A stretch of 64,000 bases of DNA from Nautilus pompilius (taxonomy: Eukaryota; Mollusca; Cephalopoda; Nautilida; Nautilidae), in the NCBI GenBank assembly GCA_018389105.1, contig JACATO010000924.1, forward strand, positions 939,988 to 1,003,987. Reading direction: 5' to 3'. Under the pieces are notes generated by a model. It saw only the letters and a program-made list of their open reading frames with translations, did no database searches and was not told the DNA's origin. The translations under genes and the position numbers were made by a program. This document shows, one piece after another, positions 1 to 50,341 of this stretch (positions within the stretch are counted from its first letter, which is position 1; every line of letters begins with the position of its first letter).

Positions 1-210
1 GACGTTCATTGGATATTAATCGATGTCTCCGCGAAGCCATTCTACCCGCAATCCTTGTAGGATGTAGCGCTTTAATATATATACATATATATATCCCCTT
101 GGTGGACAGACAGACAGGCAGACAGGCAGGCACTAGTCCCAGAAGCAGTCAGAAAAAGAAAGAAAAAAAAATCGAATGTGGAAAAGTATCGTTTGATTGA
201 TCGATGGGTG

Positions 211-565
211 ATAGAAAGAAAGAGACAGAGAGAGAGATGGGGGGAGATAGAGACAGAGAGAGAGAGATGGAGAGATGGGGGGAGAGAGAGAGATAGAGAC
301 AGAGAGAGAGAGATGGGGGAGAGAGAGAGAGATAGAGACAGAGAGACAGAGATGGAGAGATGGGGGGAGAGAGAGAGAGAGAGATAGAGACAGAGAGAGA
401 GAGATGGGGGAGAGAGAGAGAGATAGAGACAGACAGAGAGAGATGGAGAGATGGGGGGAGAGAGAGAGAGATAGAGACACAGAGATGGAGAGATGGGGGG
501 AGAGAGAGAGATGGAGACACAGAGAGGGAGAGACAGAGATGGAGAGATGGGGGGAGAGAGAGAGG
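211..565. repeat. GA-rich minisatellite
   Basis: Irregular units of roughly 36-57 bp built from GAGAGA, GATAGAGACAGA and GAGATGGGGG blocks. The GATGGGG landmark recurs at about 235, 276, 312, 359, 404, 449, 491 and 548. Open frames on both strands here are simple translations of the repeat and not genes. Confidence 0.92.
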
Positions 566-1172
566 ACCTGAGGTCAGACTGTCCGATAGATGGGGGGGGG
601 TAGCAGCAGCGACACAGCCGGGATGCTGCTAGCTTCTTCTCCTCTTGTCCGTCCGTCCCCGTCTTTTCGCCTTCCGGTTTTTTTTTTTTTTCCTTTCCTT
701 TCTTTCTTTTGGCCACGCGCAATCACAGCACACAGGTACTGCTTACCTTCCTTCCGGCCGGCCAGTCTCGTTTTTTGCCTCACCTCGTCGTCCGGCGTGG
801 ACGAAGCTATTACGGAAAATCAACACAAATAAACTTCCGCCCACAGCCTCCCGGCGACAAGGTTTAACCTCCACGAACCCAACCCGTGGTTTCTGTTTCA
901 CACCGAGCCTAACCCTGTGCCCACCACCCACACAACTTCACTCGAGTCCAAAAGTATCTTTAAAAAAACAATAACAAACTGGTTTAGCACTTTAAATTTT
1001 AATCTAACAGTTCATGATAAATCAGTTAAATAATCTGTTAAAGGTTCAGTTTAAGAATTACTTTATTTTAAATGAAATACATTTGGAATTTTACATATTT
1101 TGCTTTAAATACCATAATGAATAAAGCACTTATATTATATCATTTTGTATATAAATCATATACTTTTAAAGT

Positions 1173-1173
<1 letters not shown>

Positions 1174-1223
<50 letters not shown>
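1174..1223. repeat. (ATT)n microsatellite
   Basis: About 16 uninterrupted ATT/TTA repeats. Confidence 0.97.
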
Positions 1224-1874
1224 GAAATTCAAATGCCGATTTTTTGTTATTTTATACTTCAGGTGTGACTTACCGTCTGTACCTGATTCCACCTAAAAAA
1301 GACAAACCAGAAAGCATTTGTTTGTTGATAATTAAATCCCTACCTGCTCGAGTTTTTTTTTTTTTTTTTAAATACGGGCAAACTTTTTATCTACTGTTCG
1401 CCAGCCTTATCGATCACAAGCGTCCACTATTCGTGTCAATGGCATTGCAGGATAAAAGCCCGATCGACGAATCAGAACTGGCAGATTGATGACAACACAC
1501 TCCGCTGACTGCCAGCTTTAACTCTCCTCCTCCTCCTCCCTATGTCATGGTCTCCTCCTGCGATTTCCATCTTCTCCCGAGTGTTGCCTTCGTGCAAACA
1601 ACCGGTCACCGTGTCGCGCTGTCGTCGTCTTCCTCGAAAGACACCCGAGCTTCTCATCAACTGAGCGTAAAAATAAATCAATAAACTGGGCGTTAAAAAA
1701 CAAAACAAAAATGGTGTCTTCTTTTTTTTTCCCCCGAAATTAATTACTAATTGCTTCTTGGAATCAGTTCTTTATAAACTTTTCTTGTTTTCTTCAGCCG
1801 GGTGAACAATAAGACTTCAGTGGCAAATGAACTTCTACTAGCTTGTGGATTGCTCAGTAAAATACCGTAAAGCT

Positions 1875-1883
1875 TTATTATTA

Positions 1884-1928
<45 letters not shown>

Positions 1929-1930
1929 TA
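1875..1930. repeat. (ATT)n microsatellite, interrupted
   Basis: TTA/ATT repeats with one TTTA interruption near the left side and a TTTA break at the right end. Confidence 0.95.
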
Positions 1931-2402
1931 AATATACTTTACATTTTTCTATGGCCTGGCTTTTTTTTTTCGAGTACATTTCTTATTTTATCTTCTCCTT
2001 TACCATATATTTATTTATGCTGCGCTCTCCTCTCTAGCGCCATAGTATGTAAACCACCTGTCCCATCGTCTCCCTTTCATGAAAATCATCGAGCGGTGTA
2101 ACTCTTCTCGTCCGTGACGGCTCATTGAATGAAACCGTTTCGCAGTTTCCAGTGTGACCGAGACGACGACGAGGAAGTAAACAAGAAATTATTCAGTTCT
2201 AAAACCATGACACTGAACGTCCCAGGAGCCACTCGCTTTCCTGTTGCTGAGTTTGTTGAATTTATTAGCGTAGATGATTAACAGACGGTTTTATACCTGA
2301 ATGATGATTTTCTACTCTAAAGTGTTATTGGTTTTGTTGTTGCTTTTCCTATAGAGCTTGTTATTGTTTCTAAGATGCAAACAAACTGCTTCTTTCTCCA
2401 TA

Positions 2403-2469
2403 TCTCTCCTCTCTCCATCTCTCTCTCTCTCTCTTATATCTGTATATGTGTGTGTGTGTGTGTGTGTGT
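2403..2469. repeat. Compound (TC)n / (TG)n microsatellite
   Basis: An imperfect TC run is followed, after TTATATCTGTATA, by about twelve TG repeats. Confidence 0.93.
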
Positions 2470-3949
2470 TTTTTAAAAAAAGTATGAATTAATCTAATCA
2501 TTTCTCACGAAGATCAATAGCCATCCTATTTAGAAATAACTCTGTTTAGTTTTACAGCCTAATGCTGTTGTAATTGCTCTTAATAAAATGTTCAGTAATC
2601 ATGAGTTTAATCTGAACTTTAAGGGCCCGTTTATGATCGTTTGTTTCGTAAATATTTGCAGAAAAGGGATTTTAATACTAAATAAAGCTGTATTCGGATT
2701 TGTTGCGGTATTTTAAATTATTTTTAACTCTGCGCTGTTGTTTCTTAACCAAATAACACTAGATCACTTTAAAATTGTTGCAGTTTTGTATAGTTTGTGT
2801 AAGATTGGCAGTGACTTAAGTTCGCAAATGTATGGCATCGAATTATCGTAGCCTGCAACCTGCTATTGCGGAAGTCCTTTTTCAGCTGCATGCGTGGAAT
2901 TCTCCTTCAGCTGTCCCTGTTGGAGTTTGGCGTAGCTTTCCGAATCTGTCCAAGGGTTAGGGTTAAAGCTGCTTAGATTTCTTGAGTTCTTCCAATTGAA
3001 GGAAAGCTATTTCTTAAACTGCTTGTTAGCACTTAAATATGATACCAGACCACGGTAATTGGAACAGATTCTGCATTCTTTGGCACTTGCAGTCAGACGA
3101 CGCGATCACTGTAGTTATAAAGACTGCACCTGCTCACTTTCGGATCCCCATCCTACGGCCGATTTGTGAGTGCCCCCGGATTATGCATTTGTACCAACAG
3201 CAGACTAATTTTACCATGCGACTAAATTATGAATAGCGAAAAAATACAGGGAAAAGACTTAAATATATGAGAATCTGACTCCGTTTCTACCAAGAAGAGG
3301 AGAGGAGGAGTTGTAATAAGGTCGCATCACATCACACATTGCCAAGATGCAGTTCGAATCTGTTCCACCAGCATGCATTAGTCCAAGAAAACAAGCAAAA
3401 CGTAATGGCGCATTGGATATTAGAATAAGTAAAGGTACCAACTAAATTTTGAAGAGCAATAACAAAGAATCAGTACGTGTTTTCAGGTGAAACAGGTTAC
3501 TGTCCTGAAAGTGTGGGCGAACATCTGCCAACTGATTGCAAAGAACTTCTTGTCCTTTATACAGTACGCTCTAAACCTGTCAGTTTTTTCCAAAGGTGAG
3601 CAAATTTCTTTGAGAAAAAATGTCCGCGACAACGAGAATGGTCGACAGGCGTCTAGCGAAATTCCCGCTGATACTCCGGGATGGCTAAGGTCGGGTACGG
3701 AGCGTGAGTAACAGTAGCCAGTGCGCTTCTCGTTCCTGTGATAAGATGATGTACACGCACGGACACAACTACCGTGGCTGGATTTAAGCAAACAGAAAAA
3801 TTATAAAAGCATCGAGTTAAATTTAAAAAAAAAAAAAAATGCACCATAGGATAATAATTCCAATGGGGTGGGAAGCTACAGCGTGGCGAGTTTGTTCATC
3901 TTTTCTATGGAGGGCTGTAACCGGTGGATAAAAACATCGGGCGAGCTGA

Positions 3950-5872
3950 CTACTCGGTCGAACCGACGCATAAAGATGTCGGGAACTTCTCGCACATCAG
4001 GCTCTCCGGCCACTGGAACCCGAACTTGTTCATCAGCGTCTCGCAGCCGTTCCTCGCCTGGAGGCAGAGCTTCTGGCAGGGCGGGATGGGCCGCTCCAAG
4101 ATGGTGCAGACGGGCGTGTACATGGAGCAGAGGAAGAACCTGAGCTGGGGGCTGCACTGGACTTTGACGAGCGGGAAGAACTGGTGGATCTCCAGCCCCG
4201 CTTCGTCCTGCTTCTGGTGGCCCAGCAGGTTGGGCATGATCGTCTGGTTGTACTGGATCGCCTTGCACAGCGGAATCGTGATGGGCTCGCACTTGGACAA
4301 ACCCTCTATTCTTTTCATCGCTTTCCTCTTTCTGTCCTGCTCTCGCTTCTTCTTTTCGCGTTCTCTCTTCGCTTTACGCTCTCGCATCTTCCTCTCCCTG
4401 GCATCTCTCTGCTCTCTTTTCCTTCGCTGTCTCTCCTGTTTCACGCTTTCTCTGGTTATCGCTAGGACCGATACGCCGACCGTAAGAGGTCCAGCTGCGT
4501 CCGTACCGCACTCCTTCTCGCCGATGCACAAACCCGAGGAAGGGAAGCTATTGCAGGCGAGGGTGTCGGGCCAATGGAATTTAAGCCTCTCCTCGAACGG
4601 CTCGCATCCATCTTTAGCCTGTTCGCAGAGCCTGCGGCACGGCGGGATCGACTCGCCCAATACGGTGCAAACCGGAGCATGAAGCAAGCACAGAAACATT
4701 CTCAACTTGGTTCCACACTGGGTGGCGGCAACAGATTCAAACTGCCGAAGGGCTACAGCGGAGTCATTCTGACTCCGATGGCCCAGCGCATTCGGCATGG
4801 CTGTCTCGTTATAAGGCATATCACGACAAAATTCCATTGAAAGTAGCTCACATCTCCTTTGCTTCACGGTGCGCAAACCATCGCCTTGTCTTTCTTCCGT
4901 CCCCCGCCTGTTCGACATTAATCCCGCCGACCGGGGCTCGAGTAAGTTATCGTCTGTTTCTTTAAGACAAAGACCTCCTTTCGGGAAGTTCTCGCACCTT
5001 AAATTTTCCGGCCACTGCATCCCGAATTGATTCAGTACCGGTTCACAACTATCCCTGACCTGCAGGCACAGGGAGCTACAGGGGGGGATGGCCTTCTCCA
5101 AAACAGTGCAAACTGGCGCGTGAACATAGCAGAGGAAATGTCTAAGCTGTTTGCTGCATCCATACTGAACGAGAGGAGAAAACCATTCAATTTCCCGTGC
5201 AGCCTCCTCCTGGTTTTCATGCTGCAACAGGTTTGGCATTATCGTTTCGTTATACGACACCTTGTTCTGACAGAATCTCATCGTGACCGGCTCGCACCTT
5301 CCCCCTCTCTTCCTGTCCAAATTCCGCGATTCACCAGTCGTCATCTTTCCCGCCGGTGCCGTTGCAGTGACCTGCGACTCTTGTATCTCAACAGCGGACG
5401 CTTTCGGGACGCACCGGCCCCCTGTCGGGAATCTGTGGCACTCCAGCTGATTCGGCCACGAGAACCTGTATCGTTTGATTACATTTTCGCAACTGCTTCT
5501 TACGTGTGAACAGAACGAGCGACAGGGCAGGGCCCGCGCTCCCGTCGTCCGGTAGGCGCAGTCGGGCACGTACAGAGAACACAGGAAAGGCTTCAGTTCC
5601 GAAATACAGCCCAATTTCATAATGGGCAAAAACTGGTAAATCGCCATTTCCGCTACCTTCTGACTGCTGTGAAGAAACTCGTTGGGCATCAGGGTTTCGT
5701 TGTATGGGACACCTTTGCAGAAGACTATCGAAATAGACTCACACTTCGCATCCAGAGGCTGATCCTGGCCCTGCCTCTGTGATGTTCCACGTCGCTTTCC
5801 CCGAACGAGAGAGCAGACTGCGATCAGGACTAAAACCGACACGACGGCCACTTTTCTGATAAAGTTACCCAT
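3950..5872 (-). CDS. Secreted protein with four tandem Frizzled (FZ/CRD) domains
   Basis: This 640-aa frame has no interruption. Residues 1-25 form a signal peptide with a hydrophobic core at about 8-22. Four FZ domains follow at residues 44-154, 193-302, 341-449 and 528-635. Each has exactly ten cysteines in canonical spacing (for example C44, 52, 89, 98, 105, 117, 121, 128, 145 and 154), a YN(E/Q)T sequon (N58, N208, N355, N542) and an MPN motif. Domain 4 has the MPNLLGH, FFLCSMY and NKFGFQWPE signatures of Fzd1/2/7. FZ domains bind the Wnt lipid and thumb, so a secreted multivalent Wnt binder or antagonist is inferred. There is no 7TM region, KTxxxW motif or netrin-like domain, so it is neither a receptor nor a standard sFRP. 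The start is supported by an in-frame TAA at 5885-5887, 15 bases upstream, and by the signal peptide. The stop is TAG. It is intronless as seen. There is no poly(A) tract on the coding strand after the stop, and no AATAAA in the first 450 bases (only TATAAA at 3556-3561). Nothing else resembling a gene lies nearby. Confidence 0.9.
3968..4291 (-). other. FZ domain 4, Fzd1/2/7-like
   Basis: Residues 528-635 with ten cysteines and a sequon at N542 (YNQT, the form used by Fzd1/2/7). It is the best conserved of the four. Its DNA is visibly GC-richer than that of domains 1-3, with many G/C third positions. The protein ends five residues after the last cysteine (C635), at the point where a Frizzled receptor would continue into its linker and 7TM region. 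Confidence 0.92.
4301..4456 (-). other. Highly charged Arg/Lys/Glu linker between FZ3 and FZ4
   Basis: Residues about 473-524 are almost entirely R, K, E, Q and D, with several runs of basic residues (for example RQRRKR at 481-486). The composition fits a single charged alpha-helix or coiled coil and offers many dibasic sites. The other two inter-domain linkers are about 38 residues and less extreme. The coding DNA here is strongly purine-biased on the minus strand, so expansion of a GA-rich tract inside the gene is a plausible origin. Confidence 0.75.
4526..4852 (-). other. FZ domain 3 of the tetra-FZ protein
   Basis: Residues 341-449 with ten cysteines and sequons at N355 and N369. [16 protein letters not shown] and IPPC are retained. 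An extra cysteine, C455, lies six residues past the domain and has no partner inside a canonical CRD, so it could mediate dimerisation. It is preceded by RTVKQRR at 334-340. Confidence 0.9.
4967..5296 (-). other. FZ domain 2 of the tetra-FZ protein
   Basis: Residues 193-302 with ten cysteines (C193, 201, 239, 248, 255, 265, 269, 276, 293, 302) and a sequon at N208. It keeps [18 protein letters not shown] and QWPE, so it is closer to the Fzd1/2/7 pattern than domain 1. It is preceded by the basic cluster DRKRGGR at residues 186-192. Confidence 0.9.
5411..5743 (-). other. FZ domain 1 of the tetra-FZ protein
   Basis: Residues 44-154. All ten cysteines are present, with the conserved sequon at N58. 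It is the most diverged domain: the segment after MPN reads EFLHSS rather than LLGH, and the usual PVCT after the fifth cysteine region is replaced by [11 protein letters not shown]. The fold is expected to be intact, but Wnt-groove residues may differ from those of domain 4. Confidence 0.88.
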
Positions 5873-17358: not shown

Positions 17359-21127
<3,769 letters not shown>

Positions 21128-21557
21128 ACTTTTATCAGGTAATCCAGCGGTACGATAGTTCTTTGATGACACTTTTATCAGGTAATCCAGCGGTACGATA
21201 GTTCTTTGATGACACTTTTATCAGGTAATCCAGCGGTACGATAGTTCTTTGATGACACTTTTATCAGGTAATCCAGCGGTACTATAGTTCTTTGATGGCA
21301 CTTTTATCAGGTAATCCAGCGGTACGATAGTTCTTTGATGACACTTTTATCAGGTAATCCAGCGGTACTATAGTTCTTTGATGGCACTTTTATCAGGTAA
21401 TCCAGCGGTACGATAGTTCTTTGATGACACTTTTATCAGGTAATCCAGCGGTATGATAGTTCTTTGATGACACTTTTATCAGGTAATCCAGCGGTACGAT
21501 AGTTCTTTAATGACACTTTTATCAGGTAATCCAACGGTACGATAGTTTTGATAACAC
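21128..21557. repeat. 43-bp minisatellite, 10 copies
   Basis: The unit starts ACTTTTATCAGGTAATCCAG, with copy starts at 21128, 21171, 21214, 21257, 21300, 21343, 21386, 21429, 21472 and 21515. The last copy is diverged and slightly shortened. Copies 4 and 6 share the same linked variants (ACTATAG plus GATGGC), which marks a duplicated 86-bp dimer (copies 3-4 and 5-6). Most copies contain CTTTGAT. Confidence 0.96.
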
Positions 21558-24378
21558 GTGAAAGGTAAGAAAGTGCAGTAAAAACGAGAAAAATACTATG
21601 CTAAAACAGAAGAATGTATTTTCATCACTTAACTTACCAAGAAGTCGATTTTGTCCAATTATGCTCCACATTAAGTTATAAATACGTTCGAAATATGCTA
21701 AAACAGTTTTTTTTCGTCGCTTGTAACGTTTTTCAACGCATTTATATACAAACATATCCATTGTACGTTTTACCTCAACCTCTTGTTTATCAAATTGAAA
21801 CCGGAAATGATGTCTCTTCCTTATCTAAACCAAAGAAAAAGAGAAGCTTTGCGCAAAAACACTTGTTTTAAATTACTTTTGTTTGATTCTCTTGAGAGCT
21901 AAAAATACGAGAAAAAAAAAAAGAAAATTGTTTGTACGAATAAGATGTACGTGACGGTTTAGCTGCTCCAAGGAGACATGGTATCACACTAGCGAGCATC
22001 GCTGGCTTCTTTCTGCTTCTCCGAACATCGTCCTTTCTCGGGGCGGCCTCTTGGGGTAGAAATCTTCTCGGTGTAAAGATTCTGCGCGGGTCACGTGTGC
22101 GCGAGCTCGCGATCTTCTTCTGTCCCTACTTTCACTAATACAAGGAGAGACGCAGGAACTCTTTCATCGTCTGTACACAGCTTTTCATCGGTATGGAAAC
22201 ATTTGTGAATGGTTTTTTTTTCTTTTTTTGTTAATTGGCCGACGAAAAAAAGTTGTTCAAGTAATTGGAGGGACAGCTGGAGTTGGAACGACTCGTGCGC
22301 AGACAGCCCCACACCCCGACTTGTACACAATGTAAAGACGGTTTTAAGTAAGTTCGGATCTTCTGGTCTTTGTTCACCATTTAAAGCAGACAAGACAACA
22401 AAATACTACAGGAGCATTTCCCCCTGAAAGCAACGACACCAACCTCTAAACACCACAACATACATTATTACTACTATCCACTGTTTAGCTTTCGCACTAA
22501 GATGAATAACCACAAAAAAACTACCTAAAGCCAAATGCACCGACTGTGGCGTAATCAAAGTTGTTTAGCGACTTCCTGATATACGGTCATTCGTGCGTAT
22601 TTTAAAAAGTAAGGGAAGTTTAAACGTTTACTGAGGTTATGCACATTTGTTAAAGGAATTCACCGCGTCTTGAAGGCCACAACCACTTCGAAAAGTCTTG
22701 CTGAAATCTATAGAAAGAAGAGAGGACCAACTGAGTGATCAGATTCGGTAATCGTTTTTTCTCCGAAACGAAAAGAGTTAAATCCGAAAGAAATACAGAC
22801 AGATTATTGTTGCATTCATGAAAACGATTTTTAACCTTCGCTTTTCTCTTTTTGAAGCCGTCGAATTTAATTTAAACGGCTTTAATCGGCTTGTATTTTT
22901 TTTTCCCCTCGTAAACTTAAAGTTCGAGAATCTCTCTCTCTCTCCAATAGAGAGATGAGAAGGCGAAGATGTATCCATATTAATGTTTTACATACTGGGA
23001 AATGAATAGGATAAGAAGAAAAATCTGATAGTGGGAAAAAAAATGAAAAAGGAAACTGCTCTTTGCATCAGATTACTTAACCCTAGCGGGATGAGATTCG
23101 CCTGCGTGGCCCATCGTTCAGCCTGACGGGTGGATTCCCTGTTCACTAATAATGACTCGGTTAACGAGCCGTCGTGACGCAATTTGTTGTAGGGGAGATC
23201 GTTTAGAGATGACGAAGCTGAAACAAAGAACGAGTTCGGTGCGGACGGACGGTTTTGTAAACGGCGCATTCCGGTGGCTGGTTTATTTATCTAGAACTGG
23301 AACAGTTTGAATTAGGAAAATAAAAGTTTAGTTTACTTCAGACGCTGCAAGCGCATAGCATTAACTGGTCGTTTTTGCCTGCGACTGACTGAAGGTGGAT
23401 TCTTAAGACGAGCAGTTTGGGTAAACATTTAAAAATCGATTGATATTAAATTTTATTTTTTAGAATTTTTTTTAAATAATCAACGTTTAAAAGCTTTTTT
23501 TCGGAAAACAAAACAAATAATTATCCACTGATGATACGTGTATTTGCTATTATTCTTCTTCATCTGTTACAGAACGTTGTGAAACTTTGCTAAAACTATC
23601 GTAAACCTAACTTTTCACAACTGTCCTTTGACACAAAGTTGATCGATACCTTATTTATTGTTCACTAAATGGACATCAACAAACTGGGTTTATTGGGCCA
23701 ACCTTTGTCACGTATCGCTAAGCAAAAACGATTGAAAACCGGGACTAGTTATTACAACACCGGTAATTCTTAATTAAACGTAGAGAGCGACGTTACAGGT
23801 TTGGGCATTGAGCTCGGATGTTCAAAGCATATGACATCGATTATACCTCATCTCTGTTTAACTGGGACTTACTAGGGCTGTAATAAATAGCCCCTATTTC
23901 CTTTACTTTACCCGTTCTTTTATTTTTCATCTAATAGGAAATGATTTCTTGTTAGGTTGATTGTCACAAAAGCAATCAGATTTTTAAAATGGAAAATACT
24001 CGCTTTCATTGGTTGGTTGTTAGCGGCCAAAATCCTTTTTAGATCCATATAAATTTCAAGTCTGCAACCTCGACTGAGCCTGTTCTAGCGCCTTCTACAG
24101 ACTCTGACCACCCAAGAATTCCAACACAGTACTGATCCCGGATGACTGGTTTGTGGTAGACTCCAGGAAGCAGAAAGTAAATCTTCCAAGCTTCTCTTGT
24201 TCCTGGTTAAGCTACGTATCCGTTGTACAGCGGCAATAGCCAAATTGCCAGCGGGTTTTAGCGGATAGCATAATAATACATTACTACTATTTACCATTCG
24301 ACTTCACCAAGTAGGGAACGTATCAGATATTAAGCTGATAAGAACAGATACTACACTTTGATCTTTTTTTTTTTTTAA
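21558..24378. other. Unrecognised non-coding stretch
   Basis: Mixed composition with poly-A and poly-T runs and a short TC run at about 22929-22944. No gene recognised. Frames up to 100 codons (for example 22091-22393 minus) have no features that I know. Confidence 0.4.
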
Positions 24379-35505: not shown

Positions 35506-35797
35506 GCACCACTTCATTATCCCTGTTATCCCTAGTCAGCCCAACAACTCGAGGTGGACTTTTATTGCAGTCGACTGCATCCCAACGCGAAATTACCCCA
35601 CGAGAGACGTTTAGTACAGAGACCCCTAAACATCAGAACGATGATTGATTGGCACCACTTCATTATCCCTGTTATCCCTAGTCAGCCCAACAACACGAGG
35701 TGGACTTTTATTGCAGTCGACTGCATCTCAACGCGAAATTACCCCACGAGAGACGTTTAGTACAGAGACCCCTAAACATCAGAACGATGATTGATTG
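35506..35797. repeat. Tandem duplication of a 146-bp unit
   Basis: Unit 1 is at 35506-35651 and unit 2 at 35652-35797. They differ at only two positions that I can see (ACTCGAGG/ACACGAGG and CATCCCAA/CATCTCAA), so the duplication is recent. Both contain ATTATCCCTGTTATCCCTA. Confidence 0.95.
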
Positions 35798-38787
35798 GCT
35801 TTATGGTTAAAATGGATTTCTATTATTAACCTTAATATAAACCCACTTGCGATATTTTGTAGAAGGGTCTGTGTCGGAATCTATGCGACTTACAAGATCC
35901 AAACTGGTAGACGACAAATAAAACCGGCTCCATCCGAAGACTTGACATCGCGGCGAACTATAGCTGAATTAGGATCTAACAATTGGCCAGGCGCTGCCAA
36001 CAGAACATGAGAGGATCGTGCGTGACCCAGCGAGCTATGGGTAAGTGAATCTGTTAATCAATCTAAGACGAGGTCTAACGACCCAAGAAGATAACATTTT
36101 TGTATACTGGCATAGTAACGCAAAGTGAAGCGTCCGGTTCTCGTGGTGAAAGGAAAAGCAGGGGGCAAAGAAATCACAAGAAGAAGAAGGATATTTAGAA
36201 TATCAAATAAAAGAGGGGGGTTTGTATTTTTTAAATCAATTACCGGGTATGCTTTATCATTTCTTTTTCGCTGTTATGGAGATGCTTCGGTTAGCTTTAT
36301 TCTAGCGCCCAGAGGTCATTTTTAAAAGTTGTATCCAGAAATCTACGTCGAGCCTCACGGAAATCAGATCTATTTCACGTAGAATAACTGTTGTGAAAAG
36401 TAGTCCCACCAATTATTCTATTCTTTCTTCCTGTTGTTGTTTTCAGGTGGAAGGATCTGTTATCCTGTCTTCGTTGTCAGATCAAACCCCACTCGCTAAA
36501 AGCCGGCGGAGCCCACTTAATCCATTTAGGGGAAGTTAACCCACCGTTGACACTATAATCTCCGCCGATTTTGCCGCGATCCCGTCTCAGATGTGGCCGA
36601 GCAGTTTGCAGCATTACGTGCAGCCTCTCTTGTTTTTATGGACTTATCAATGTCACGCTATGGTTTATAGTTTCCTTGTCAGGACTGATAAAGTGTAATA
36701 AAGTTTTAACGCCGAAGAAATAACCAGAGCTAACAAAAAGGGGAAGAAAAATAAAAAAAAAAGAAAAAAAAAAAACAGATTTTCCAGCACGTGGGTAAAT
36801 CGGTATCTGAGAAATACATCAGTTAAAAGTACCGACCATATGGTTGTTGGCTCCTGAACGCCTCGCCTCTAATGACCAGATTGCCAATGAACTAGAGCAA
36901 CTTTTGGGGAATTATCCAGACTAACAGTTTGATCATAATAATTAGATTAAGTAGATCATTTAAGGGCAATTAAAGACATAATAACCAATTCTTTTTATAG
37001 GCGCAGTGGAAATGTCTGAGGCGCGTGACCAGAACGAGTCTCAGAGCCATTTCTTCTGTGGGTAATTTATTTAAGAAACTAATTAAAGAAAACAGTAGCC
37101 GGCCTGTTTAGTTTTATTACTGTAAAAAAAATAAATAATAAAGTAAAATAATTGATAAATAAAACAAGATTTGGTATTCTGAAGTCTTACATATATATGT
37201 ACAGAATAGTTAATATAACCTGACTCCAAAAACTGCTTTAACACAATGTTAGCTGATTGTCAGTTCGTACAACGTATTTAGTAAACCACACAAAGAGGCA
37301 TGCATGAATAAATAACTGGAAATATTTGATGGAAACACGGAATTCTTCGTGAAGGACGAAGCCTCCCGGAACCAAAGTTTAGCTGTTGTCACGTGAACAC
37401 TTTAGACCTACTTTCGGTGATAAAAGACGGTTTAACATGTAGAGTACCGACATGTTTGAGAGCAAGCTTCCGCGGAGTTCAGAAAACACGTTTATAACTT
37501 TTAGCACGATCACGAAGGTGCGAAGGTCGCGAGGGGTCCAGAAGACGTAAGCAGATTGGGCAGACTAGGAACTCTTTTACAGGGACGTGGAATCCGGAAG
37601 TCGCGGAATACAGATGGCGGCACGATTTTCCGAATTCGAGAGAGGGGAAACTCGATAACATTTGTCCCTCCCTTCTCCCCCCCCTCATTTTTAAGGAAAT
37701 GCATATCAGTTTGAGGTATCAAACGACTACGTTAACCAATAAAACTGATTGGGCAGTTGCAGAGAAATTAAGGAAAGATGCGGTGTTTGCGAAGCACGGG
37801 TATTTTGCCGTTTACCCGCGATGGCTTAGTAGTGAGAATCGGATTTCTTGGGCTGTTATGACGTCATAAGCCACGACAGAGAAACCAGTCACTTTCGTGG
37901 ACTCGCAGTTGGATCCCGATTGTCTCCAATATGGTGCAAAATTACGGGGCTTCCTGCCGCGCCAAAGTCTTCCGTTCATTTAGAAAAGGTTGTCTCATTG
38001 TGATTTAGTGTGATAACACTATATAATGCCGGAGTTGAAATATTTACATAACAAGCACGTATTACATTTTTTCTATATGAAACACGTTGGTTTTTCTCAC
38101 TAATTCTCAAACCATAGATGTGCCCCCACGTGGACTAAACTACTGCTGGGATCTCACAGTAAATGTTCATGGCGTCAGAACTGCCAATAAATTTCATGTC
38201 ATATGACAGCACTTAAAAAAATATATTGTGTGTATATAGAAGAAACAGCTCATAATTTCTCTTTTCGGTATCAAGGCTTTGTTTTTTTTATTTTTTTTCA
38301 GAATAAAAAGAGAAATGGTTGAACCTGCTGCTTAATTGGTAGGCAGACCATTTTATCCGGCCAGAGTCGGCGCTGCCGGTGAGGCGGGTGTAGGATGAGA
38401 AGGAAGGAGAACCAAAAGTAACTCGATACAAATGCTGTGTCAAAAATGATAGATGGACCTCTTTCTGAATCTGCCATCGAAATCAGCCAGGGCCCGGGTC
38501 GTGGAAGGCGGGCGGTACCCGCTCAGCTGGTGTCGGCTTACCTGCGAGCAGACCCATCGGCCTCATCCCAGCCCGATATACACGGCGAACTTCTCTGCCT
38601 CCAGGCGGGAAGGCAAGCGTCGAAACCCCTTCCATGAGAATAAATAAAAGCGAAAGTTTGTAGTCGTCTCATTGTGCTCATCGTTTTAGTATTCTGCAGG
38701 TAGATTCTATTTGCAGCAGACCTAAACTAACATTTTTTTCCTTCTTAATGAAGACGTCGCTGCAAAACTGCTCTTCCGTTTTAAACG
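35798..38787. other. Unrecognised non-coding stretch
   Basis: The moderately GC-rich block at 36450-36660 stands out from AT-rich flanks and might be a conserved non-coding element. A-rich tracts lie near 36750. Nothing else is recognised. Confidence 0.35.
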
Positions 38788-46414: not shown

Positions 46415-47206
46415 GTTTGCTGTAGCATACTTGCGATCGACCAGTGTATTACTGACACTGATTTCAAGTGAGAAAGGAACGTTTGCTGTAGCATACTTGC
46501 GATCGACCAGTGTATTACTGACACTGATTTCAAGTGAGAAAGGAACGTTTGCTGTAGCATACTTGCGATCGACCAGTGTATTACTGGCACTGATTTCAAG
46601 TGAGAAAGGAACGTTTGCTGTAGCATACTTGCGATCGACCAGTGTATTACTGACACTGATTTCAAGTGAGAAAGGAACGTTTGCTGTAGCATACTTGCGA
46701 TCGACCAGTGTATTACTGACACTGATTTCAAGTGAGAAAGGAACGTTTGCTGTAGCATACTTGCGATCGACCAGTGTATTACTGACACTGATTTCAAGTG
46801 AGAAAGGAACGTTTGCTGTAGCATACTTGCGATCGACCAGTGTATTACTGACACTGATTTCAAGTGAGAAAGGAACGTTTGCTGTAGCATACTTGCGATC
46901 GACCAGTGTATTACTGACACTGATTTCAAGTGAGAAAGGAACGTTTGCTGTAGCATACTTGCGATCGACCAGTGTATTACTGACACTGATTTCAAGTGAG
47001 AAAGGAACGTTTGCTGTAGCATACTTGCGATCGACCAGTGTATTACTGACACTGATTTCAAGTGAGAAAGGAACGTTTGCTGTAGCATACTTGTGATCGA
47101 CCAGTGTATTACTGACACTGATTTCAAGTGAGAAAGGAACGTTTGCTGTAGCATACTTGTGATCGACCAGTGTATTACTGACACTGATTTCAAGTGAGAA
47201 AGGAAC
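46415..47206. repeat. 66-bp minisatellite, exactly 12 copies
   Basis: The unit begins GTTTGCTGTAGCATACTTGC and repeats at 46415 and every 66 bases to 47141, with the last copy ending at 47206. Copies are nearly identical: copy 3 has GGCACTG for GACACTG, and the last two have TTGTGATCGA for TTGCGATCGA. Because 66 is a multiple of three, long frames stay open on both strands (227 and 261 codons, each a 22-residue repeat). I read these as a by-product of the repeat. There is no signal peptide, splice context or known motif. Confidence 0.95.
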
Positions 47207-48771
47207 GTTCAGAACACTAGATTAGCACTAACAGAAAATCGAAGCACCCGGAGTTTTTTCTTGGAGGGAGGGGGGACGGTCTAGAAACGAAGCCACTGGC
47301 TTGAAAACAAACACAGCCCAAGAGAAGACGCAGTCGCCGCGTCGAGCGAGAACGCTACTCGCTTTGTTTTTAGTCGGCATTCTTTGACCGCCGAAATGCT
47401 TGTCCCTGGCGCACGAAGCGATGGACCGACGCCTAGGTGCGTGTGTCAGATTCAAGCTTCACTTGCATCCGCGATAACAACGCGGGATTTTTATTGCAAT
47501 CTTGGAACCGATGCACGGTCAAGTAAATTATTACGAAACCAGTTCGTGAGGGCTTGGCGTGAGTCGGGGAAGCGCTTGTGTAGACCGGTTCGCCGCAGCA
47601 GTCGCTCTTCGTTTTCACCGGGTGTGTGGTGGTGTAAAGGCTGTTCAGCCTAATCCTTAGATTCCCGCATAACCTGCTTCAGATCAAGAATTAGATCCCA
47701 TCCGATTCCACCATCAGAAAGATATTTCTTTGAATGCCCGAAAACAATTTAAACGGAGTTAAATCCGTGGAAATCGGGGCGCGATATGAAACTTTGAGTC
47801 CCATTCTCCGTTTTTGTATTAATTTTTGTAAAATTATTCGGTTGAAGAGCAGAATTCTCACTCCGAAGAGACAGTGAGGAAAAGGCCACAGGGGAGCGTC
47901 CAAGGGAAACGGGCCGCACGTTTATCTGGACGGAGAATTCGGCCTCTATGCTGCTTTTAATTCTGATTACACATTAAATTTCTGCTCACATTTTGTTCCG
48001 ATTAAAAATTTTTCATTGAAGAGTCCATATCCCCTCACATTCCCCTTTTAACGACAATAGTTTGCCCACTCCGTATCCCTCTGTTTTGTTCCTTGCAATC
48101 CGTATATGTTCTTCCCTTTTCCAATTTAGCTTATTAAACGGCACGTTTCCGTCTCAACCTCGATCCGAGCCCCTAATCCTTTTTTAATTTGTACCTTGTT
48201 ATTTGTTTTAAAACATTGAAACTTATCGTTGCTAAGCTTCGCGCACGCACACGCACACACACACAAACACACAAACACTGGTAGTCTAAGTGTAGATTCA
48301 CCTACGAAATCTCCACTTCATATATAATCAATTCTTTAGTGCATGAAGTTGCGTATATATTAACATATTGACTTTTGTAAAATACATTAATTAATTAAGG
48401 GTTTTTATACTTAGCTCACAAGATATTTCGTCAAAATATGCTCCGGTCTGCTCGATGACTTTTTTTAAAAAAATACTTTTCCCGTCAAAATTATTAATCT
48501 CTACAAGTAATGAGAGGGCAAAGAATTCCGTGTCTCGATTAGGCTACTCCACGACTGCAAAACATTGGCCGACCACTTCGGTTTAACTCTTCTGCGTAGC
48601 TGATCTACAACTAGTCGAATGGGATTGAGATCTGAAGATTTTGGCAATTCATTATTTTCAGAATCTATCCTCTTCCTTTCGCGATAAGTGCGGTTTATTG
48701 TGTTTTTTGTCGAGTCTTTGAGACATCAGGCATTTTTGTATGATAAAACGAGGGGTCCAGAAGAGGTATAG

Positions 48772-49966: not shown

Positions 49967-50341
49967 TCAAAGATGTTCAATGTGAGCACCATTGGTCACA
50001 CGACACACATCAAGCCTATAGTCCAATTCTTGCCAAACGCGTCCCAGCATTGCATTGTCACCGGTTGAAACAGCTTCTGTTATTCGTGCCTTCAGCTCAT
50101 CCACGTCTCTGGGAATAGGGGGCACATATACCAATCCTTTCACAAATCCCCACAAAAAGAAATCGCATGGTGTGAGATCTGGAGATCTGGGTGGCCAGGA
50201 CATGAGATCGTGATCATTCTGCCCAGACCTTCCAATCCATCTGTCTGGCAGTTTTATGTTCAGAAACTGTCTAACCCTGAGGCTCCAGTGTGGTGGCGCT
50301 CCATCCTGTTGGAAAATGAAAGTCACCAGACTCTTTCTCAA
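49967..50341 (-). pseudogene. C-terminal fragment of mariner-like transposase
   Basis: The 124 codons include FQQDGAPPHW (second catalytic Asp box) and WPPRSPDLTPCDFFLWG (third Asp box), separated by 46 residues if the Asp of PCDFF is used. The fragment ends GAHIEHL followed by a stop, the normal C-terminus of this group. The helix-turn-helix DNA-binding part and the first catalytic Asp are absent, so it cannot act alone. The remaining frame is intact, which suggests a fairly recent insertion. Confidence 0.88.

Follow-up and report, generated by a model that had tools for sequence, protein, structure and literature searches.

A Nautilus frame of four tandem Frizzled domains beside an Fz1/2/7 receptor gene: a probable secreted Wnt decoy

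Does the genome of Nautilus pompilius hold a stand-alone gene for a secreted protein made of four Frizzled (FZ) domains and, if so, from where did this gene come? The question is raised by a frame on the minus strand of the window, a stretch of 64,000 nucleotides that reaches from base 939,988 of contig C881 to the contig's final base. We refer to the frame as the array and to its domains, in protein order, as D1 to D4.

Results

Four FZ domains in one frame

The array frame (3950..5872) runs uninterrupted from ATG to TAG over 640 codons. Since a stop-free run of this length has a chance probability of about 4e-13 at the local base composition, we regard the frame as a real feature. A Pfam search of the 640-aa product, which the preliminary description had proposed, returned the Fz family in four stretches (E 4.3e-121, 397.9 bits), and all four places exceeded the cut-off of the FZ family (PF01392) in the genome profile search. 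No second family passed its cut-off in Pfam (the lone extra listing reached 13.7 bits versus a cut-off of 26.3), and netrin, 7TM (PF01534), protease, collagen, LDLa and Ig domains were absent from the frame in the same analysis. All 40 signature cysteines are present, exactly 10 per domain. The features, all on the minus strand, are as follows.

3950..5872, minus: single-exon open reading frame, 640 aa, four FZ domains (frame list, Pfam, genome DNA search)
5798..5872, minus: signal-peptide-like N terminus, residues 1-25, MGNFIRK plus 16 hydrophobic residues (hydropathy; cleavage site by eye)
5411..5743, minus: FZ domain D1, Cys44-Cys154, diverged, 42% identity to the Nautilus Fz1/2/7 CRD (alignment, PDB match)
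4967..5296, minus: FZ domain D2, Cys193-Cys302, 55% identity to the same CRD, best PDB matches Frizzled-7/-2
4526..4852, minus: FZ domain D3, Cys341-Cys449, 46% identity to the same CRD, three of eight lipid-groove positions polar
4313..4447, minus: core (residues 476-520) of the highly basic D3-D4 linker, 84% purine DNA, microsatellite-like
3968..4291, minus: FZ domain D4, Cys528-Cys635, 92% protein identity to the CRD of the neighbouring Fz1/2/7 receptor

With a 19-residue window, hydropathy peaked at 2.42 over residues 5-23, and none of the windows starting beyond residue 25 exceeded 1.6. Because there is no such later window, the protein lacks a 7TM region. Apart from this N-terminal stretch the protein has no hydrophobic segment of its kind, and it is probably secreted. 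The preliminary description had claimed a signal peptide followed by four ten-cysteine FZ domains in one frame, with no 7TM, netrin, protease or collagen part; within the frame this architecture is borne out, with a start that resembles a signal peptide. The gene is neither a canonical sFRP (no netrin) nor a Frizzled receptor (no 7TM). The same N terminus might instead hold the protein in the membrane in a type II, corin-like topology, with four FZ domains on the cell surface. Positive residues flank the 16-residue hydrophobic stretch on both sides, and the genome also has FZ exons beside LDLa-like exons (by eye), but 16 hydrophobic residues are short for a membrane anchor and the frame contains neither LDLa nor a protease domain. 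We consider this topology unlikely.

All four domains have an NXT site past the second cysteine, six residues on in D1, D3 and D4 and seven residues on in D2; for Frizzled receptors the site is described as lying exactly six residues after that cysteine (PMC4669655). When matched against solved structures, D2 and D3 fitted Frizzled-7/-2 best, with Frizzled-7 on top for both, and D1 was about equally close to Frizzled-8 (its top match) and Frizzled-1.

The D3-D4 linker (residues 450-527) has 29 K/R and 14 D/E among its 78 residues, six KR/RR sites and two R-X-K/R-R motifs, and its DNA is similar to GA-rich repeat DNA elsewhere in the genome. An intron within this linker was rejected, the stretch being purine-rich and ending, as judged by eye, without a pyrimidine tract. 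The basic sites raise the question whether the product is a polyprotein-like precursor, cut in its linkers by proprotein convertases to give single or paired FZ units. There is RGKR after the signal, RQRR/RRKR before D4 and KR/RR before D2 and D3, so that KR/RR occurs in all three linkers and in the N-terminal tail, and R-X-K/R-R is confined to that tail and the linker between D3 and D4. However, dibasic sites are expected anyway in linkers as basic as these, the R-X-K/R-R motif is absent from the linkers before D2 and D3, and the similarity of the D3-D4 linker to GA-rich repeat DNA means that its basic residues may be incidental. Such processing is, in our estimation, quite improbable.

FZ domains elsewhere in the genome and other features of the window

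We searched the genome (727.64 Mb in 2558 contigs) with the full 1920-base array. The query matched one place in full, and a haplotype duplication of the array was rejected on this result. Four further matches were partial: the CRD of the neighbouring receptor, a stretch in the Frizzled gene of contig C2200 and two matches to the linker, of which the one inspected is GA-repeat DNA.

The Pfam Fz search of the genome gave 21 places, 4 in the array and 17 outside it. Besides the neighbouring receptor there are three further 7TM Frizzled genes, labelled Fz5/8, Fz4 and Fz9/10 by eye, and Smoothened-like pieces; the sFRP and Smoothened labels on other FZ frames are likewise by eye. The label of one sFRP3/4-like FZ place gains weight from a netrin match some 12.5 kb off, on the same strand of contig C1331. 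Only three netrin (NTR) matches were found in the genome and none of them lies on C881, so a netrin part downstream of the array was rejected. The window itself contains no Frizzled 7TM, netrin or additional FZ match (genome searches, E <= 0.001). For window positions 1-3949 we listed the stop-to-stop frames of 45 codons or more on the minus strand, 19 in all, and read them by eye. Pfam scans covered ten frames: the receptor, a two-FZ frame and eight from the window, the last eight without a match at E 0.01.

The two-FZ frame (C324:335,834-336,766, minus strand) is another FZ-only frame of 311 aa, with a signal-like start and two diverged FZ domains; Pfam gave 129.6 bits in two stretches and listed nothing else at E 0.01. 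On C2314 (2,486,944-2,496,470, plus strand) three FZ exons, each matching the profile to about position 81, precede exons that look LDLa-like by eye; together they may form a spliced, corin-like gene with several FZ domains. C294 has a comparable arrangement, two FZ exons plus one LDLa-like exon (by eye).

Several unrelated features were recorded along the way. Tandem repeats occupy window positions 46415-47209 (a 66-base unit in 12 copies, 99% alike, which gives a repetitive open frame on either strand), 21127-21547 (a 43-base unit, 9.8 copies, 96%) and 35506-35799 (a 146-base unit, 2 copies, 98%). A partial U2 snRNA match at 24303-24361, minus strand (50.3 bits, model positions 27-84 of 192), is perhaps a pseudogene or a repeat piece. 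The 124-aa frame at 49967-50341, minus strand, resembles, when read by eye, the C terminus of a mariner-type transposase and had no Pfam match at E 0.01. Across the genome, a search with a hemocyanin model, which we take to be molluscan, gave 14 matches in two arrays of seven molluscan-type units each, as fits a mollusc; Nautilus hemocyanin consists of seven units.

An Fz1/2/7 receptor gene downstream of the array

The 7TM match nearest to the array (C881:937941-938927) belongs to a separate frame on the same strand.

C881:937905-939680, minus: receptor frame, 617 aa, first ATG at 939,680, stop ending at 937,905
C881:939210-939524, minus: receptor CRD match, ending 464 bases left of the first base of the window

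By Pfam this frame contains Fz and the complete Frizzled 7TM family; it has its own ATG, a signal-like N terminus, CRD and 7TM, all in one frame. Its C terminus is ESVV and it carries KTLNSW. Both fit motifs given for Fz1/2/7 in PMC4669655, where KTXXXW is attributed to all Frizzleds and ES/TXV to Fz1/2/7 and Fz4. The receptor CRD, judged through D4, is similar to human Frizzled-2/-7. The array lies upstream, 4,256 bases from its stop to the receptor start. No FZ, 7TM or netrin match was found in between by the genome profile searches, and the intervening frames were read by eye.

This arrangement could mean that the array serves the Fz1/2/7 gene as an alternative exon, part or all of it being spliced to the receptor to give a multi-CRD membrane receptor. 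The two lie on one strand, 4.26 kb apart, with no FZ, 7TM or netrin match between them, and D4 is almost identical to the receptor CRD. The receptor, however, needs no such exon for its ATG, signal-like N terminus or CRD, which it has in a single frame of its own. We scored candidate donors with a crude matrix that was not trained on the host species. By this matrix the GTs that could serve the whole array (at 3967, 3963 and 3953) scored -6.1, -4.2 and -5.1; over the window the median is -5.3 and the 90% quantile -0.1. Five GTs stand in the final 60 bases of the frame, scoring -8.7 to -1.0 and all below that quantile. Eight GTs within the array scored 2.4-3.5, above the window's 95% quantile of 1.2, which makes splicing from inside the array conceivable, but all internal donors stay below the 99% quantile of 4.3. 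In the approximately 480 bases upstream of the receptor ATG, a crude pyrimidine count found one acceptor-like AG (-406). Splicing of the array to the receptor 7TM exon is thus unsupported, in that this crude matrix finds no convincing splice sites, and we give the shared gene a low probability. The preliminary description had named splicing to a downstream 7TM part as evidence that would count against its reading; a scan of this kind lends no support to such splicing.

Origin of the four domains

Identity to the Nautilus Fz1/2/7 CRD was 0.92 for D4, 0.55 for D2, 0.46 for D3 and 0.42 for D1. Of the 17 FZ places outside the array 10 entered the comparison, and for each array domain this CRD gave the highest value; the lead of D1 was narrow (0.42 versus 0.39 for the next of the 10). 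The sFRP3/4-like CRD of the genome (label by eye) reached 0.35-0.50 and was below Fz1/2/7 for all four domains. In a tree of 14 FZ domain rows, D4 joined the receptor at 80/82. D1-D3 were unplaced; none of the 11 inner branches was starred, and the tree gives no order for D1-D3.

The near-identity of D4 extends to the DNA.

3980..4294, minus: 315-base block, 96.8% identical to the receptor CRD DNA at C881:939213-939527 (DNA alignment)

The block corresponds to residues 527-631, nearly exactly the D4 domain. The 305 identical bases of 315 are evenly spread (43-45 of 45 in each of seven bins). On its 3' side, array and receptor remain related, though much diverged and aligned with two gaps (28 of 5000 shuffles scored as high); on its 5' side no relation was detectable (2923 of 5000 shuffles scored as high). 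These alignments point clearly to the neighbouring receptor CRD as the source of D4, most likely through recent gene conversion or a fresh duplication. Conversion of an older D4 is favoured over a fresh duplication, because identity drops sharply within sequence that is still homologous.

D1, D2 and D3 differ from the receptor CRD in 45-58% of residues, with pN (0.28-0.35) below pS (0.64-0.83). By these distances they are old, diverged copies and, despite their age, they retain all 30 cysteines and an open frame. Their position and similarity suggest descent from the same receptor. The most likely history is then that the array arose by tandem duplication of the CRD of the neighbouring receptor and that D4 was copied again lately.

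Of the 105 codons in the D4 block, 9 differ from the receptor, 8 of these 9 by amino acid. Strong purifying selection was rejected (P 5.9e-5 for omega 0.1, 0.013 for omega 0.3; 0.07 for omega 0.5), and the pattern was compatible with neutrality (P 0.47). The replacements were milder than random ones (mean BLOSUM62 1.5, P 0.0004). At the eight replacement sites the residue of human Frizzled-2 is found in the receptor at four, in D4 at two and in neither at two (by eye). Since the human residue is kept variously, both D4 and the receptor seem to have changed.

Might the array then be an unexpressed or decaying receptor duplicate without function? The D4 block gives no sign of strong purifying selection, and there is neither a clear promoter nor a nearby poly(A) signal: no TATA-like box was found within 600 bases upstream of the array, and past its stop the first ATTAAA comes at 1.27 kb and the first AATAAA at 1.68 kb. 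On the other hand, D1-D3 are old, with synonymous sites far diverged, and have nevertheless kept their frame, 30 of 30 cysteines and a pN well below pS; the changes in D4 are conservative. Decay is highly improbable on this evidence.

The Wnt-lipid groove

The cavity of FZD7 is lined by Phe86, Pro88, Leu89, Val92, Leu134, Met135, Phe138 and Phe140 (PMC6333880). D4 is identical to this list at all eight positions. In D1 (F P I L V I Y F) and D2 (F P L Y V L F M) each of the eight residues is hydrophobic, aromatic or Pro, and this holds too for the control Fz5/8, Fz4 and Fz9/10 CRDs of the same genome. D3 (F S V T F E L F) is polar at three of eight. Two sFRP-like CRDs of the genome depart as well, both with Arg at V92 and with Glu or Ser at L134; departure of the groove is for this reason no proof of lost Wnt binding. 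As judged from these residues, D4 is very likely able to hold a Wnt lipid, D1 and D2 probably so and D3 less likely so. Given the three polar positions of D3, it is uncertain whether the array protein would be tetravalent, as the preliminary description had proposed, although its proposal of a Wnt trap is still the best reading.

Discussion

We estimate a probability of roughly 60% that the array is a separate gene encoding a secreted Wnt decoy of tandem CRDs, formed in situ from the Fz1/2/7 receptor gene beside it. This reading draws on the intact four-FZ frame, on a receptor gene that follows after 4.26 kb in the same orientation, on D4 being almost identical to the receptor CRD, and on groove residues conserved in D4 and, in hydrophobic character or as proline, in D1 and D2. 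A secreted splice form of the Fz4 CRD, as told in PMC4669655, is a functional precedent, and so is sea urchin sFRP-1. Some observations speak against it: the pattern in the D4 block is unlike strong purifying selection; D3 departs at three groove positions, though the sFRP-like CRDs do likewise; a TATA-like box and a close poly(A) signal were looked for and not found; and the signal-like N terminus may be a signal anchor.

According to this model, the CRD-coding part of the receptor gene would have been duplicated repeatedly, with the 7TM part left out. The protein would be secreted and its CRDs would capture palmitoleoylated Wnts that are also ligands of the Fz1/2/7 receptor. It has been proposed that one Wnt may bind a CRD dimer (PMC6333880). 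Adjacent CRDs of the array might pair in this way around one Wnt lipid, which the tandem layout could favour. The very basic D3-D4 linker may hold the protein near cells on heparan sulphate, and Wnt signals would be locally damped or spread as a result. D3 would probably be weaker, structural or occupied with another ligand.

A further, doubtful extension of the decoy model is that the decoy updates itself: the receptor CRD would repeatedly overwrite one domain by gene conversion, such that the ligand range of the decoy tracks that of the receptor, while the older domains drift to other roles. If so, a secreted multi-CRD Wnt trap would follow the ligand range of the parental receptor beside which it lies.

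With or without such updating, a decoy at this locus would offer a case in which the possible path from a Wnt receptor to a soluble decoy can be traced, since the source receptor adjoins and one domain is near-identical to it. The array would be a natural model for engineered multivalent FZ traps, and it would bear on Wnt patterning in Nautilus, a cephalopod of unusual body plan.

How does the array compare with known systems? It shares the CRD family with the Fz1/2/7 receptor next to it, up to 92% protein identity in D4, but the receptor combines one CRD with a 7TM region whereas the array has four FZ domains and no 7TM. Corin likewise has more than one FZ domain but is a membrane-bound serine protease of type II topology that carries LDLa repeats. 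Canonical sFRPs are secreted FZ modulators of Wnt, with one FZ domain and a C-terminal netrin domain in place of the four FZ domains without netrin seen here. Phrase searches of the open-access subset of the literature, weak proof of absence, found no molluscan protein of four FZ domains only; a prawn transcriptome paper (PMC3555924) contains the phrase 'two frizzled domains'. Lophotrochozoan like the array are FzCRD-1, -2 and -3 of Platynereis and one Aplysia gene, which PMC4669655 describes as having the CRD domain only, not in tandem, and reads as lineage-specific duplicates; in that account FzCRD-1 is thought to derive from sFRP3/4 and the Aplysia model is maybe incomplete.

The closest architecture is that of sea urchin (Strongylocentrotus) sFRP-1, in which a signal sequence precedes four tandem CRDs, an Ig domain separates CRD3 from CRD4, and netrin is missing (PMC5778778, Khadka 2018; Illies 2002, as cited there). 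In embryos, mRNA injection and morpholino knockdown indicate that it antagonises Fzl5/8 signalling, and the sea star genome is reported to hold at least four related genes of similar architecture (PMC5778778). The preliminary description knew of no protein consisting of four FZ domains only; set beside this secreted four-CRD protein, which adds one Ig domain and has no netrin by the account in PMC5778778, that statement was too strong. Both proteins have four tandem ten-cysteine CRDs, no netrin and no transmembrane domain, secretion of the array protein being predicted. They differ in that sea urchin sFRP-1 has the Ig domain and CRDs related to sFRP3/4 (PMC5778778), whereas the array has no Ig and its CRDs are closest to Fz1/2/7. 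Being of different phyla, the two are probably convergent. Secreted CRD-only and four-CRD proteins are thus already known; what is new, as far as the literature search reaches, is a four-FZ-only protein that lies beside an Fz1/2/7 receptor and shares recent sequence with it. Together with echinoderm sFRP-1, the array would represent a second, independent origin of secreted four-CRD proteins, and two origins would suggest that Wnt modulators are built from tandem CRDs time and again.
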